From contig NZ_CP036281.1 of NCBI RefSeq assembly GCF_007750395.1, positions 3,061,001 through 3,125,000 on the forward strand: a stretch of DNA of 64,000 bases, in the 5' to 3' direction. Positions 3,980 through 63,657 of this stretch are shown here, piece by piece (positions within the stretch are counted from its first letter, which is position 1; each line of letters begins with the position of its first letter). The notes below the pieces were generated by a model. The model saw nothing but the letters and a program-made list of their open reading frames with translations. It made no database searches and had not been told where the DNA came from. The translations under genes were made by a program, and so were the position numbers. The DNA is from Polystyrenella longa. GTDB taxonomy: Bacteria; Planctomycetota; Planctomycetia; Planctomycetales; Planctomycetaceae.

Positions 3980-4205
3980 ACGCTTCGCTCAATTGGCTTA
4001 CAGCGGTGTCGGTTCAAGGGGGGCATTTCAGATCATTCCACCTTAGCCCACTAAATGACCCCACGCAAGCAACTGAAATGAGAGAAACGACTTGCGGCGA
4101 TCTTCAAATTCGTGCAATTGTTTCGAGATTACTCCGGATTCCATGAAAGATTCCCGCAGGGAGAGTGTGTTAATATATAGACCGCCCCACCATCTGAAAG
4201 TCGTT

Positions 4206-4817
4206 ATGAATATTCCTGAAACCCGAGCGAGCCTGATTCTCCGATTGTCCGACAAAACTGATGTCGAGGCGTGGGATGAATTTGTCACCATTTACCAACC
4301 GCTCGTCTACCGGTTGGCGTTAAAAAAAGGATTTCAGGATGCCGACGCACACGAATTAGTACAGGAAGTCCACCTGGCCGTTTCGCGAGCGGTGGATCGA
4401 TGGGAGCCGATTTCAGGCGGCCCCCGGTTTCGAGACTGGCTGTTTCAGATCGCCCGAAATCTGATGATCAATTTTATGACTAGACGCAAGTATAAACCCT
4501 GGGCAACGGGCAGCCCTCAAATCGAAGCTCTATTGAACGAGCATGCCGATCCCCATGGTGAAGAATCCCGGTTATTCGATTTGGAATTCAGACGCGAAGT
4601 TTTCCAATGGGCAGCATGTCAGGTCGAAGAAAACGTTCAACCCAGTACGTGGCAGGCATTCTGGATGAGTAGCGTCGAAGATATTCCAATTCCTGAAGTT
4701 GCCGAACGACTGCAAATGACCGTCGGAGCCGTTTACATTGCCAGAAGCAGAGTAATTGGTCGTATTCGCAACCACGCCCACAAATATGCAGAAGTTAATG
4801 ACAGGAGCAACGGATGA
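4206..4817 (+). CDS. ECF-type RNA polymerase sigma factor
   Basis: 203 residues from the ATG at 4206 (MNIPETRASLILRL); an ATG at 4092 is in frame, but the intervening residues look non-coding and GAAAG precedes 4206. Region 2 is visible as WDEFVTIYQPLVYRLALKKG, ADAHELVQEVHLAVSRAV and FRDWLFQIARNLMINFMTRR. Region 4 is visible as WQAFWMSSVEDIPIPEVAER followed by an HTH (QMTVGAVYIARSRVIGRIR). This is the planctomycete ECF type that sits beside a Ser/Thr kinase instead of a classical anti-sigma factor. The stop overlaps the kinase start (ATGA at 4814-4817), so the two are translationally coupled. It probably directs transcription in answer to the kinase's signal. Confidence 0.9.
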   Translation: MNIPETRASLILRLSDKTDVEAWDEFVTIYQPLVYRLALKKGFQDADAHELVQEVHLAVSRAVDRWEPISGGPRFRDWLFQIARNLMINFMTRRKYKPWATGSPQIEALLNEHADPHGEESRLFDLEFRREVFQWAACQVEENVQPSTWQAFWMSSVEDIPIPEVAERLQMTVGAVYIARSRVIGRIRNHAHKYAEVNDRSNG

Positions 4818-6367
4818 GTAATCAACAAGTGCATTGTGACGACATGCAATTGAATTTGCTGCTTTCGGGAGACATAGACAGCAACGAAGTACAACTGTGG
4901 ACAACTCATATCGATCATTGTCAGCAGTGTCAGGATCGACTGACGGCAAAAGCATCGGATGAACAAGGTTGGCAGGATATTTCTGCGTTTCTTCGCGAGG
5001 GCTATAAAAGTGATCGTGGCATTTCACATGAACAACGTTCCCAAACCAGAGCGTTCGTTCCCGACCTTAATTTTCTGGAGAAACCTCCTCACCCTGAGTT
5101 GCTCGGTCAATTAGGTCGATACCAAATTGAAAAGGTGATCGGTTGCGGAGGGATGGGGATCGTCCTGAAAGGGCATGACACCGAGTTGAATCGACCCGTA
5201 GCGGTGAAGGTACTTGCGGCCTATCTGGCGAACAGTGGCGCCGCCCGTCAACGGTTCGCCCGCGAAGGTCGCGCGGCTGCAGCGATTGTTCATGAACATG
5301 TCGTCGGAATCCATAACGTCGAAACGCAGACAGAAGTTCCCTATCTAGTAATGCAATACATCCCCGGCGATTCCTTACAAACACGGGTTGATCGCCAGGG
5401 ACCATTAACGGTCACCGAAATTTTACGTATCGGTATGCAGGCAGCAGCAGGGTTGTCCGCCGCCCATGCTCAGGGTGTAGTCCACCGCGACATCAAACCA
5501 TCCAATATTCTACTGGAACAGGGAGTCGACCGAGCGATGCTGACCGACTTCGGACTGGCCCGCGCCGCAGACGATGCCACTTTGACCCGTTCCGGCATCA
5601 TCGCCGGTACACCGCATTATATGTCACCGGAGCAAGCCTCTGGCCTGACGATCGATCATCGTTCGGATTTATTCAGCCTGGGAGCCCTGCTCTACTTTAT
5701 GGCAACGGGACATCCTCCTTTTCGTGCAGAACAACCACTCGCAGTGCTGAATCGCATCTGCAATGATCGTCACCGGCCTGTCTGGGAAAACAATGCCGAC
5801 ATTCCGGATGACTTGTCTGACGTTATCAATCAGTTATTACAGAAAAAACCAGAGAAGAGATTCGCTACGGCGGCACAGGTGCAGGAAGCCTTACGGCAAC
5901 TCCTCGAAAAGTCACAACAACCCGGTGCTTTCCGACGCCGAACTCCGATCAGAAGGTGGTTGAACAATCATAAAACACCCCTCATCAGTTCATTACTGAT
6001 GGCAGGACTGCTTGCTTTAGTAGGAATCAATTGGTATCTGGCAAAAGGGCCCACCCAGCCTCCATTCGTTCTCCTGGAAAGCGATCAGACCCCTGAAGAA
6101 GTAACAAGTAAGTCTCCTCAACCCGTATTTGTTGCCCCCCGGAATCCATTCGATGTCGAAGCAGCCACGATGGCGATTCAATTTCTCGATATACAACCCA
6201 GCCAGCAGTTTGCAGCCGATTTACTTCTTACACAGCAGCAGTTGGATCAACTCGAAACCATGCAGTCAGAATCCGTTCTTTCTTCTCCAACGTCTACAAC
6301 TAATCCGGAATGGACACAAGAATTGGATGAGATCGAGAACAGTTTGAATAACCTCGAACAGAACTAA
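4814..6367 (+). CDS. Membrane Ser/Thr protein kinase with N-terminal anti-sigma-like zinc finger
   Basis: 517 residues. Residues 8-40 hold an H-x3-C-x2-C element (His32, Cys36, Cys39), the signature of zinc-binding anti-sigma domains. The Hanks-type kinase domain spans about 100-370: G-loop GCGGMG (111-116), Lys133 in AVKVL, HRD (225-227) in VVHRDIKPSN, DFG (246-248) and SPE (272-274), so it looks catalytically intact. One membrane helix lies at about 390-410 (LISSLLMAGLLALVGINWYL). A roughly 105-residue Gln/Pro/Ser-rich tail would be extracytoplasmic. The gene overlaps the upstream ECF sigma gene by four bases. A direct role as its anti-sigma or activator is inferred from the zinc finger and the coupling. 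Confidence 0.9.
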   Translation: MSNQQVHCDDMQLNLLLSGDIDSNEVQLWTTHIDHCQQCQDRLTAKASDEQGWQDISAFLREGYKSDRGISHEQRSQTRAFVPDLNFLEKPPHPELLGQLGRYQIEKVIGCGGMGIVLKGHDTELNRPVAVKVLAAYLANSGAARQRFAREGRAAAAIVHEHVVGIHNVETQTEVPYLVMQYIPGDSLQTRVDRQGPLTVTEILRIGMQAAAGLSAAHAQGVVHRDIKPSNILLEQGVDRAMLTDFGLARAADDATLTRSGIIAGTPHYMSPEQASGLTIDHRSDLFSLGALLYFMATGHPPFRAEQPLAVLNRICNDRHRPVWENNADIPDDLSDVINQLLQKKPEKRFATAAQVQEALRQLLEKSQQPGAFRRRTPIRRWLNNHKTPLISSLLMAGLLALVGINWYLAKGPTQPPFVLLESDQTPEEVTSKSPQPVFVAPRNPFDVEAATMAIQFLDIQPSQQFAADLLLTQQQLDQLETMQSESVLSSPTSTTNPEWTQELDEIENSLNNLEQN

Positions 6368-6409
6368 ACCAATTGATTCCACTTTTCACTACCAAAGGAA
6401 AACGGACAA

Positions 6410-7120
6410 ATGAATAAGAAATCTATTGTTGCGATCGCCATGATCGGCTGCCTTTCAGTCTTCTTTGCCTGGGAAGTCCGAGCCATCGCTCAACAGTTAA
6501 AAAGTGTCGAATCAACCGGACCAGTACCGGAAGAGGTTCCCGTTAAACAACCATTTCAGGGGGCCGATGAACCTATCTTTGGTACACCTTTCAGTAATCC
6601 CCCATTCAGTGACAATCCCCCTCCAATTGTAGATAACTTTGAAGGGAGCTCTTCTAAAGAAAGATCCATACCACAAAACGTTATTTCACATTCTGTTAAG
6701 ATTTCGCAATCTGTTTCCAATCTCCACTCAGCCAAAACAGATGAGGAAAAGAAGCAAGCGGAGACAGAACTGTCCGCAGCCCTCTCTGCCTACTTTGACA
6801 ACGACTTGAAAGCCCGCGAACGAGAAGTCCAGGCCGTGCAGGAACGTGTCAAAAAGCTTCAAGATAAACTCGATACAAGACGAGAAGCAAAAGAAGAGAT
6901 CGTCAATCTACAACTACAGCTCATGGTCAATGAAGCCAACGGATTGGGCTTCTACAATGGGGCTAGCAATGTACCCGGTCAATTTAATCCACAGCCAGTA
7001 CCGTATAGATCGTTTAACAATGATCAAGTTAACGAGGAATGGGAGCCATCGTCCAAGAAAGCACCCTTTCAAGAACACCTCGACTTAGATGATCCATCAG
7101 AGACTGATCCTTTTGGATAA
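6410..7120 (+). CDS. Exported coiled-coil protein of sigma/kinase cassette
   Basis: 236 residues. An N-terminal hydrophobic helix (IVAIAMIGCLSVFFAWEV, about 5-23) acts as signal or anchor. A Pro/Phe-rich linker follows (about 40-75). Residues 111-175 form a charged coiled coil (for example REREVQAVQERVKKLQDKL), ending in an LQLQ...NEANGLGF segment that I associate from memory with planctomycete proteins next to ECF/kinase pairs. It lies 42 bases after the kinase with a purine-rich AAGGAAAA upstream of its ATG, so it is probably co-transcribed. It may be the periplasmic sensor or scaffold for the kinase tail; this role is inferred from context only. Confidence 0.8.
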   Translation: MNKKSIVAIAMIGCLSVFFAWEVRAIAQQLKSVESTGPVPEEVPVKQPFQGADEPIFGTPFSNPPFSDNPPPIVDNFEGSSSKERSIPQNVISHSVKISQSVSNLHSAKTDEEKKQAETELSAALSAYFDNDLKAREREVQAVQERVKKLQDKLDTRREAKEEIVNLQLQLMVNEANGLGFYNGASNVPGQFNPQPVPYRSFNNDQVNEEWEPSSKKAPFQEHLDLDDPSETDPFG

Positions 7121-7237
7121 AAATCCGGGTTAATCGAATGACGGAATGTCCACTCACCTGGTAACGATATAACATTGCTAACAGAACGAGCTTTATGATC
7201 GAGAATTCAGGTCTTACAAACCAACGAACCTCAACAC

Positions 7238-8368
7238 TCAAGCAAGTTGAGGTCGCGGGCTGGAGAGCATGACTGTCTTCGCGAAGCGGCGGAACAGCAA
7301 TGCCACCTCACCGATCAACCAGAGGCAAAGACAGGGAATTGTCAGCCAGCCGAAGGGATCGAGATATTCACGGGTGACACGTTCCACCATTTCACCGAGC
7401 GTTCCCTTATAGAGACCTTTACCCAGACCGATGAAAGGATGCGGACGGAGCAGGCGGTATTTCCCTGTGCGGAACCAGGCCATGCCGCGGTCTCCTCGTT
7501 TAGCGGCAATCACGAGGGCGTCATCGACCTTCTTGCCCGACTTGACTAACGCATTGACTCCTTCTTTTCCGGCGACGTGCAGCGTATACCCGCCCGCCGG
7601 AGTTCGTTTCATAAAGTCCGCTACGATCTCCAACTGCTTGGGATTATCGATGTGCCTCATCAATCGCAGCATCCCCGCGGGTGTCGACTGTTTGGCAATG
7701 ACTTTTACATTCGTAAACAGTTTGGTAACCGCCGTGTAATCACCTGTGTTTTTCGCCCGTTTCAAAATCGCCACAACCGACTTGGACATACCCGCTGTCA
7801 GAGAACCTGTTTTACGAGCCACTTTAAGCAAGGCAGCGATCCAGTCGACTTCTGGAAGCAAAGTGGTTGCCAGACCCACGGCAGAGAGGGCCAGAATAAC
7901 TTCGTCAGAATCGCCATCGACGACTTGTTTCGTTCCTTGAATCACCAAGTCGCGCACGTCGCCCACAATAATAAAATCGGCCGAGACCGCCCCGATCAAA
8001 GCTTCGACCGAATCCCCTTCGCCGATAACCGCTCCACGCAACAATTCACCACCGCGGCGCAATAGACTATCCCGCTCATCAACGACATTCTGGCGGACAT
8101 ACTGCAATCGCTGCAGTTGATCGCCTGAGAGCTCCTTCACACCCACATCCGCCACCATGATCGCCTCGGCGTATCGATTTTCTTCCGCCAACTGCTGGAC
8201 TTCAGCGATATAGTCCGCGGGGGGAATCATGTTTAGCTGCAACCGGGCGAGACGGTAAGGATTGTCGTCGATAAAAATCCAGAGAAGGTACACAACCAGA
8301 CTCAAACGGAGCAGGTTCCATTTACTTATCCAGACCAGCTTTCCCAGATGGAAGGGTGAGCGGTTCAT
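7238..8368 (-). CDS. Membrane protein of unknown function, two terminal helices
   Basis: 376 residues. A transmembrane helix near residues 18-34 (LLRLSLVVYLLWIFI) is followed by a helical segment that reads like a single TPR-type unit (EVQQLAEENRYAEAIMVADVG). A central Gly/Ala/Val-rich region (GDSVEALIGAVSADFIIVGD, LALSAVGLATTLLPEVDWIAAL) could be weakly membrane-embedded. A second clear transmembrane helix lies near the C-terminus (LTIPCLCLWLIGEVALLF). No catalytic motif was recognised. It follows the 8394-9122 gene by 25 bases on the same strand, so the two are probably an operon. Confidence 0.72.
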   Translation of the reverse strand: MNRSPFHLGKLVWISKWNLLRLSLVVYLLWIFIDDNPYRLARLQLNMIPPADYIAEVQQLAEENRYAEAIMVADVGVKELSGDQLQRLQYVRQNVVDERDSLLRRGGELLRGAVIGEGDSVEALIGAVSADFIIVGDVRDLVIQGTKQVVDGDSDEVILALSAVGLATTLLPEVDWIAALLKVARKTGSLTAGMSKSVVAILKRAKNTGDYTAVTKLFTNVKVIAKQSTPAGMLRLMRHIDNPKQLEIVADFMKRTPAGGYTLHVAGKEGVNALVKSGKKVDDALVIAAKRGDRGMAWFRTGKYRLLRPHPFIGLGKGLYKGTLGEMVERVTREYLDPFGWLTIPCLCLWLIGEVALLFRRFAKTVMLSSPRPQLA

Positions 8369-9874: not shown

Positions 9875-10540
9875 TTACAAATATTTTTGAAGCCCCTCGT
9901 CTTCGAAGAGCTGGCGTAGCTCGGCTTTCGTTTTCGCCACCTGTCGCCGCGACCAGCCTGGACGCCGGCTGATGGCGTTGGGCGAAGATTCCTGTAAAAG
10001 CTGCATGAGTTCACGTTGCCTAGAGGAAAGCTTTGACCAGATCGAAGCGAGGTCTTCTTTCAACTGAGCTGATTCAAGATGATCACGAGGGCTTTGTCGC
10101 GTATGTCTTTTTGCCGCTGTTTCGGACAGCACCAATGAATGTTCGACGCATTCACCGTGTCCGTCCGGCATCGATGCATTTAGGGACGCAGAATTACGGC
10201 GGTAGTCGCGCATGGCGGCTGTGCGCGATCGAATCATCGACGTCGCCTTATTCTTGATGAGGCGATCAATGAACGTCGTGAGTTGCGCCCGACGTGGATC
10301 AAATTTGTCGACCTTCTTCAGGACTTCGAGAGCCAGTTCCTGTTCGATGTCCTGCCGATCTGCCTCTGAGAAAGCGGAATGGCGAATCAGCTGTCGCGTC
10401 TGGACGCAAATGACTCTCCGGAGGCGCGAACCGGAACCCTGTAATGATTCCGGCAATCCACGCGGCCAGGTATCAGAATTCTCAACCGATTGATTCTCAG
10501 GGCATCGTGCCGAAATCGTCGGGGGGGGAACCTTTATCAA
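9875..10540 (-). CDS. Sigma-70-like factor of the mobile island
   Basis: 221 residues from a TTG at 10540, chosen because AAAGGAG lies seven bases upstream; the frame is open further to 10606. Residues near SEADRQDIEQELALEVLKK and FDPRRAQLTTFIDRLIKNKA match sigma region 2 (core binding and -10 recognition helix) of short sigma-70-like proteins. The C-terminal SSRQRELMQLL ... SRRPGWSRRQVAKTKAELRQ is a region-4-like HTH. Such small sigma-like genes recur near recombinases in planctomycete islands (from memory). It may switch on island genes or act as an excision regulator; that is inference. Confidence 0.7.
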   Translation of the reverse strand: MIKVPPPTISARCPENQSVENSDTWPRGLPESLQGSGSRLRRVICVQTRQLIRHSAFSEADRQDIEQELALEVLKKVDKFDPRRAQLTTFIDRLIKNKATSMIRSRTAAMRDYRRNSASLNASMPDGHGECVEHSLVLSETAAKRHTRQSPRDHLESAQLKEDLASIWSKLSSRQRELMQLLQESSPNAISRRPGWSRRQVAKTKAELRQLFEDEGLQKYL

Positions 10541-10622
10541 CGCTAAACTCCTTTCGCAGATGGAACCCGCCGGAGTGGCGATTCCTATGCGATGGAGTTT
10601 TGCCAATTTTGATAGATAGTTC

Positions 10623-62574: not shown

Positions 62575-63657
62575 ATGTCTCGGATTACCAATGTTCCCCG
62601 AAATGAGTGGGAACTGTTCAATTATGGTCAACGAGACTTTCATCGATTCTCCGTGAATTCAAAAGAGCGAGAAGTCCCCTTCACAATACCGATTCGAGTC
62701 TCTGAACGATACGAGATACAGGACACGCTCGCTCGGGGAGGCGGTGGGGTCATTTTCACTGCGATTGATCTCCATACACAAAACAAGGTACTGATCAAAA
62801 CGATCGCCGGATACCAGATACCTCGAGGCTCACTGGAAGAACCGTTAGACGAAGTCGTGGACTCGATTCGCCGGGTCCGGCACCATTTGCAAACCGAACG
62901 ACGTATTCTCGTGCAACTTCGAAAACTGGGTTGCAACAATGTCCCTCATCCACACGATTACATTTTCGACTGGAACCCTGCCCTCGCTGGTCCATACCGG
63001 ACTCCCAAGGACGAACTATGGTCTTTTGAGGATGTCGAAGTACTGAAATCGGAACCTTACCTGGTCATGGAATGGGTCGATGGCTTCAGCGGTAAAGAAG
63101 TCCTTCAGCGATTCTATCCTCAAGGAATTTCTGAGCAGCAGGCGTTGTATCTGGTTGATCAAGTTGCAGCCGTGATCGAGACAATGCACCAATCCTGGCA
63201 GATGCCGAACGATATGACCTGGGATCTGGTTTATCAGGACTTGAAGCCATCAAACATTCTGATTGACGATTTCGGGCACGCCACCCTCATCGACTTTGGG
63301 GGATGTCAGATCGTCATTGACGGGGAATTAATCCTGCATGGTTCCCACTCTCCGGGATACGCCGCGCCGGAATGTGGACTCAATAAAACGCCCATCACCC
63401 CCGCGGCAGATGTCTACAGCTTGGGCACGACATTATATAGCCTGGTCACTGGCATCAATTTGCGGCGAGAATTACAGCGGAAACAACAATCGGACGAGAC
63501 TGCACGAGCGGTTGAGCTCGATTTTTCCTCCGATAATCGAATTTCCTCTGAGGTGCGGGAACTGATTTGTGACTGCACTCAACTTGATCCAACAGAACGA
63601 TTAAGCACGGCCATCGAATTTCGAGAACGCCTCAAACCGTTGATCCACGAATTCTGA
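62575..63657 (+). CDS. Unusual Ser/Thr-kinase-fold protein
   Basis: 360 residues from the ATG at 62575 with AGGAAAAG upstream; the frame goes back to 62485. The kinase domain covers about 45-355: G-loop LARGGGGVIF, Lys in NKVLIKTIAG, an insert near KLGCNNVPHPHDYIFD, catalytic loop YQDLKPSNILID (Tyr-Gln-Asp instead of HRD), DFG in LIDFGGCQIV, and PGYAAPEC then ADVYSLGTTLYSLVTG. The catalytic Asp, Lys and Asn are retained, so activity is plausible. There is no membrane segment. It is followed 174 bases later by another gene of similar type. Confidence 0.85.
   Translation: MSRITNVPRNEWELFNYGQRDFHRFSVNSKEREVPFTIPIRVSERYEIQDTLARGGGGVIFTAIDLHTQNKVLIKTIAGYQIPRGSLEEPLDEVVDSIRRVRHHLQTERRILVQLRKLGCNNVPHPHDYIFDWNPALAGPYRTPKDELWSFEDVEVLKSEPYLVMEWVDGFSGKEVLQRFYPQGISEQQALYLVDQVAAVIETMHQSWQMPNDMTWDLVYQDLKPSNILIDDFGHATLIDFGGCQIVIDGELILHGSHSPGYAAPECGLNKTPITPAADVYSLGTTLYSLVTGINLRRELQRKQQSDETARAVELDFSSDNRISSEVRELICDCTQLDPTERLSTAIEFRERLKPLIHEF

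Follow-up and report, generated by a model that had tools for sequence, protein, structure and literature searches.

The three-gene cassette analysed here lies on the forward strand at 4206-7120 of a 64,000-nucleotide stretch of Polystyrenella longa DNA (the window; positions 3061001-3125000 of a 6.1 Mb single-contig genome). It comprises, in order, an extracytoplasmic function (ECF) sigma factor gene (4206-4817, 203 residues; TIGR02937 and Sigma70_r2), a gene for a membrane Ser/Thr kinase that carries an anti-sigma-like N-terminal domain, one membrane helix and a short outer tail (4814-6367, 517 residues), and a gene for an exported coiled-coil protein with an N-terminal hydrophobic export signal (6410-7120, 236 residues). 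The sigma factor and kinase genes overlap by 4 bp and the third gene follows the kinase gene after 42 bp. An alternative, longer TTG start of the sigma factor gene is open at 4092; the ATG at 4206 is favoured because the N-terminus is conserved in the family and because a promoter motif sits at 4144-4168. The domains and coordinates bear out a preliminary description of this DNA, in which an ECF gene overlaps the gene of a finger-bearing, one-helix kinase and is followed by a secreted coiled-coil protein. The three genes stay together across many relatives and appear to form a single signalling unit.

The finger region spans residues 1-65 of the kinase (4814-5008) and exhibits the pattern C-x23-H-x3-C-x2-C, with C8, H32, C36 and C39 as the candidate ligands. 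Its conservation was assessed at 66 loci, the window and 65 from relatives, chosen by sigma factor similarity alone. A sigma factor open reading frame (ORF) was present in 60 of these (L117, L127, L130, L134, L140 and L155 had no clean one and were dropped), and 53 of the 60 had a kinase inside the fetched stretch (those dropped being L114, L122, L137, L147, L157, L158 and L162). The motif H-x3-C-x2-C precedes the catalytic motif in 52 of the 53 kinases, a frequency that excludes chance as the source of the layout. In the alignment of the 52 members, which includes the window protein, H32, C36 and C39 are invariant, as the selection criterion dictates, and C8, for which no selection was made, is conserved in at least 90%.

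The window protein alone matched zero Pfam zinc-finger families, its finger falling short of zf-HC2; a zf-HC2 match at E up to 0.1 was found in 43 of the 52 family members. A search of the PDB with the 52-member profile, rather than with the window sequence alone, returned six sequences at E ≤ 10: DdvA (4e-8), a CHAT protein with the DdvA finger (1e-6), 3hug (8e-6), RsiW (6e-4) and two ChrR entries (1e-3 and 1.1e-3). Four of the six are named anti-sigma factors, one is the CHAT protein, and 3hug is a named membrane protein, which we take to be RslA. Both the H-x3-C-x2-C motif with an upstream ligand and the profile likeness to solved anti-sigma domains place the finger with the class I zinc anti-sigma domains. 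A single-sequence structural model of poor quality (predicted local distance difference test score, pLDDT, of 50) suggests helices at residues 10-17, 23-34, 37-46 and 50-65. In zinc class I anti-sigma domains, as set out in part of PMC7406223, a motif of the H-x3-C-x2-C kind spans helices 2 and 3, and the sigma factor is contacted by helix 1 at sigma4 and by helix 4 at sigma2.

The association of the finger with ECF-linked kinases extends over the whole genome, which contains 39 kinases above the Pfam cut-off (split matches merged) and 46 ECF-family matches. With adjacency defined as an ECF-family match within 1.5 kb upstream, the finger is present on 8 of 15 ECF-adjacent kinases and on none of the 24 others (Fisher p = 1e-4); seven of the eight finger-kinases are co-oriented with their ECF gene and one is divergent. 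Five further complete genomes contain 13 finger ORFs of more than 400 residues, all of them kinases, and 12 of the 13 adjoin an ECF gene, which lies downstream in L295; seven of these loci were read directly. The finger-on-kinase detail of the preliminary description thus stands insofar as a class I anti-sigma type finger is joined to an intact kinase, and is general across the ECF-kinase group rather than peculiar to this locus. The same genome also carries two near-identical pairs of an ECF gene and a finger-kinase gene (~1500 residues) at G000:C1 5700588-5702356 (reverse strand) and 5725437-5727205 (forward strand), ~25 kb apart and in opposite orientation, apparently a recent duplication.

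The sigma factor scores 64.9 bits against TIGR02937 (cut-off 42.9) and 49.7 bits against Sigma70_r2, over its cut-off, while Sigma70_r4_2 remains under its cut-off (21.6 versus 25.7 bits). With regions 2 and 4 only, and with TIGR02937 over its cut-off, the protein is a member of the ECF family; matches at E ≤ 1e-22 were found in 38 of 59 genomes. The region 2.2 motif, DAHE (residues 47-50; 4344-4355), retains both acidic ends of DxxD and contains neither Ser nor Thr. Of the 101 sigma factors compared, 93 have Asp or Glu at both ends and only 4 have Ser or Thr at any position of the four-residue motif. In EcfP the acidic motif of region 2.2 is replaced and its charge is restored through phosphorylation, according to the parts of PMC8999054 and PMC8103513 that treat it. 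The window's sigma factor does not fit the phospho-activated ECF43 type, which has a Thr or Ser acceptor in place of the acidic motif, and EcfP-type activation at DxxD is unlikely because both acids are so widely kept. The sigma factor should therefore bind polymerase without phosphorylation at DxxD and would need some restraint, and the finger readily suggests itself as the means. A second class of ECF-adjacent kinases without the finger occurs in the same genome (G000:C1 173682, 2365890, 2391937, 3807561, 4986213 and 5518765); in the four of six inspected the N-terminal extensions differ, and in three of the four associated ECF factors the region 2.2 motif contains Ser. Elsewhere in the window, an ECF-family match of 49.5 bits lies at 9911-10378 on the reverse strand (ORF 9875-10606), with no kinase match adjoining.

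The finger is followed by a Ser/Thr kinase catalytic domain at residues 103-355 (5120-5878; Pfam Pkinase 3e-48, PknB structures 1e-51). The Pkinase match, of 164.9 bits, covers profile positions 1-257 of 263, and HRDIK, DFG and the AVK lysine are all present, as in a complete Hanks-type Ser/Thr kinase. A single predicted membrane helix at about residues 390-408 (5981-6037), with a hydropathy maximum of 1.76 over 19 residues, is preceded by an Arg/Lys-rich stretch. The outer tail ends in a putative helix at residues 499-517 (6308-6364) with a W motif that is suggestive only: among partner-bearing kinases 52 of 69 tails contain W-[DNETHSQ], compared with a mean of 38 and a maximum of 51 over 1000 shuffles, as do 6 of 7 kinase-less partners. 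A scan of genome contigs met kinases of cyanobacteria, Chloroflexi and Clostridia through query residues 69-395 and was not used. A partial kinase-domain match (100.6 bits, profile 66-254) at window positions 63034-63609 on the forward strand is not ECF-adjacent.

The third protein is a minimal form, consisting of an export signal, an unstructured stretch, a short helix and a long helix. Its single-sequence model places the helices at residues 89-106 and 111-182, with block means mostly of 85-93 in the helices and 66.5 overall. The conserved coiled-coil domain (residues 105-179; 6722-6946), of about 72 residues, is widespread despite the few relatives of the whole protein. Iterative searching of the retrieved loci, with the window protein as the starting query, located it in 19 loci, the window included, always in the gene after the kinase. 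The best Pfam match of the third protein, LemA, lies under its cut-off (E = 0.015; 15.6 versus 26.2 bits), as does the best NCBIfam match, so that neither LemA nor another known exported helical family in these collections accounts for it. No Pfam family was matched by more than two of the 19 domain members, the PDB matches of the domain profile were limited to generic coiled coils and comparable helical chains (best E 0.018), and Foldseek with the third protein gave nothing under E 0.001. Carriers of the domain span 199-1645 residues; of ten scanned, six contain Secretin_N, thioredoxin-like, trypsin-like or DUF1559 domains and four contain none.

The distribution of the coiled-coil domain follows kinase length. 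With complete kinases of 430-660 residues classed as short and larger ones as long, the domain follows 19 of 21 short finger-kinases (missing at L139 and L151) and is absent after all 29 long ones, at two of which the locus runs off a contig end; the truncated kinases L076, L108 and L142 were placed in neither class. Applied to 198 genomes of the class with a threshold of E ≤ 1e-9, the domain profile retrieved 77 copies in 52 genomes. Of these, 17 lay at loci examined before, and the remaining 60 were retrieved and classed. A finger-kinase precedes 65 of the 77 copies, and an ECF gene was detected before the kinase at all of these except L206, where none was detected, and L230, at a contig end; at L252 the domain gene begins 1.3 kb past the kinase. 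Six copies follow an ECF gene and a one-helix, kinase-less protein of 182-271 residues. The remainder comprise two copies after a kinase without zinc cysteines (L260, L267), one after a contig-cut or truncated kinase (L279), two at contig ends that could not be classed (L245, L281) and one with neither kinase nor ECF gene (L269). The three-gene synteny is therefore conserved, and the exported coiled-coil third member, first noticed at this one locus, proves to be a recurrent partner.

The domain is a mobile module that also occurs behind kinase-less ECF cassettes, and the long kinases are without it. The seven kinase-less membrane proteins, the six above and that of the weaker-scoring neighbour L208, match no Pfam family over cut-off. 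About 10 changes of the partner trait are seen on a tree of the 101 sigma factors, against a mean of 28.6 after shuffling, so the trait was gained or lost repeatedly. Among carriers 66 of 67 kinases are short, compared with 2 of 29 among non-carriers, 27 of which are long; these plain counts lean toward an association because the later carriers were retrieved by the domain itself. Phylogenetically independent pairs agree in 7.3 of 8 cases, with none in the opposite direction (median p = 0.016), and the ORF of the sole long carrier, L238, was probably read from too early a start. The pattern can be read as a single outer module, present in some systems as a fusion with the kinase and encoded in others by a gene of its own.

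Several domain loci depart from the standard arrangement. L236 (G216:C79) has two successive coiled-coil-domain genes after one finger-kinase, and L249 (G074:C56) encodes one protein with two copies of the domain; the second copies, L236b and L249b, belong to loci already counted. At L269 (G159:C149), where no kinase or ECF gene was detected upstream, an AAA-type regulator-like gene is found instead. Weak domain relatives at L210, L212, L213, L214 and L215 (E 4.5e-5 to 1.3e-3), outside the 77, are encoded behind an ECF-like gene and the gene of a small one-helix protein; at L210 and L214 a large exported protein comes next, possibly a further ECF three-gene cassette.

A putative ECF-type promoter, TGAAAG-N15-GTGT, is located at 4144-4168, 37 nt ahead of the ATG, in the region upstream of 4206 where a motif shared among the cassettes had been anticipated. 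The pattern TG[TA]AA[GC]-N13-17-GTGT occurs in 22 of 101 sigma factor upstream regions compared with a mean of 0.2 in 500 mononucleotide shuffles, a count that partly reuses the discovery data since the pattern was first spotted in 47 of the 101 regions. It is found in none of 371 control windows inside kinase genes. The motif suggests self-regulation of the cassette. A search of the whole genome returned the window site as its sole exact match, together with three one-mismatch sites, versus two in a reversed-pattern control; no regulon is claimed because this barely exceeds the control. A trained promoter model with 61 of 101 positives was circular and was set aside, and a scan of 3980-7300 detected neither a sigma-70 promoter nor an enrichment of terminators.

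We consider it moderately likely, from the sequences compared, that the three genes form one envelope signalling unit, built on a self-regulated anti-sigma kinase in the membrane whose exported partner is detachable. The sigma factor would be held at the membrane by the N-terminal zinc finger of the kinase, as the profile likeness and the gene pairing suggest, and the kinase would cross the membrane once, ending in its short outer tail. The exported protein may dock on this outer part through its coiled-coil domain, a role consistent with co-inheritance and modularity, and may report on, or modify, conditions outside. A change in the outer complex would alter the dimerization or activity of the kinase, and the sigma factor could then be released once it, the finger or the linker of the finger is phosphorylated. 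With its acidic polymerase-binding motif already present, the released protein would transcribe its own cassette from TGAAAG-N15-GTGT.

The third protein could instead be an output of the system, an envelope effector of the regulon whose coiled coil does no more than tether it, either to itself or to the kinase. The effector-compatible domains of the larger third proteins agree with this; however, it is the coiled coil and not the extra domains that is conserved beside short kinases, and it is missing beside long kinases, which reach further at the C-terminus, so that an output role appears rather unlikely. Alternatively, as in EcfP/PknT, the sigma factor might be inactive until phosphorylated by the kinase, with the finger merely docking one onto the other. 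The adjacency of ECF and kinase genes fits such a scheme; reviews assign planctomycete kinase-linked ECF groups to phospho-activation (PMC8999054 and PMC8103513, in the sections bearing on these groups), and EcfK has additional phosphosites within the linker between sigma2 and sigma4 (from a portion of PMC13147305). In contrast, DxxD, which is missing in ECF43 members, is kept in most of the sigma factors compared here, and the finger falls by profile in the anti-sigma family; we therefore hold activation of this kind to be unlikely. It seems very improbable that the finger switches kinase activity in response to redox state or zinc and never binds the sigma factor: zinc anti-sigma fingers can sense redox conditions (PMC7406223, in part) and the kinase domain does lie downstream in the same chain, but the fingers of this genome are confined to ECF-adjacent kinases and the cassette is retained at L260 and L267 without the cysteines.

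Several observations weigh against the anti-sigma kinase proposal itself. The structural model of the finger is poor, and seven of the 15 ECF-adjacent kinases in the genome are without a finger; two of these stand beside sub-cut-off ECF matches (2391937, 3807561) and one is divergent (4244738). For the finger-kinase L293, one of the 13 from the five further genomes, the 5 kb retrieved contain no ECF gene, and no such gene was detected upstream of L206. The L260 and L267 kinases have the coiled-coil partner without the zinc cysteines, and the L144 kinase, the one exception among the 53, lacks H-x3-C-x2-C; the layout thus does not require zinc. Relatives of the third protein were found in just 7 of 59 genomes when its full sequence served as a single query. 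The outer tail is weakly conserved, its W motif is present in 15 of 29 long kinases, and the tail profile singles out one of the seven kinase-less partners clearly (L209, E 0.022). These results weaken the case for the tail as a strict motif common to the kinase-less partners and leave its docking role as a proposal only.

Comparison with known systems places the cassette between several of them. Class I zinc anti-sigma factors (ChrR, RsiW, DdvA and the 3hug protein) likewise have H-x3-C-x2-C with an upstream ligand and an ECF-adjacent gene, and match by profile, whereas in the window protein a kinase catalytic domain lies between the finger and the membrane helix. The finger of DdvA also occurs in a longer chain that bears a CHAT domain (8rot). 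In CnrH-CnrY-CnrX and related three-part ECF systems a sigma factor is accompanied by a small membrane inhibitor and a periplasmic helical sensor. The kinase-less cassettes resemble this layout, although the third protein has no sequence match to known sensor families; in the Foldseek search with the third protein CnrX ranked 31 with E = 2, which is no evidence of likeness. The ECF43 factors and their Hanks-type kinases (EcfP/PknT, EcfK/PknS) share the adjoining ECF and Ser/Thr kinase genes (parts of PMC13147305 and PMC8999054). In contrast to these, the window sigma factor keeps the acidic DxxD, its kinase bears the anti-sigma type finger and a third, exported gene follows. ECF59, ECF61, ECF62 and ECF217 are planctomycete kinase-linked groups with example proteins (PMC8999054, in part); they share the pairing of an ECF gene with a kinase gene, whereas here the kinase itself carries an anti-sigma type domain. 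ECF-kinase pairs are thus already known, and the anti-sigma fusion and the coiled-coil partner look under-described. The finger-kinase fusion was not met in an open-literature search that lacked the main classification and planctomycete papers, so an earlier description is possible; the association of finger and kinase can be seen in public genomes, where it could already have been recorded.

More generally, and with reasons for and against nearly in balance, we put forward that ECF-kinase pairs of this type are anti-sigma kinases rather than phospho-activated sigma systems. One protein would sequester, sense and phosphorylate, with an interchangeable outer module that may be either a C-terminal fusion of the kinase or, in trans, an exported coiled-coil protein, whose domain would be a new family shared with kinase-less ECF systems. 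The anti-sigma domain of this ECF type would then sit inside the kinase, a directly testable prediction for dozens of cassettes that names an unclassified exported domain as their partner.

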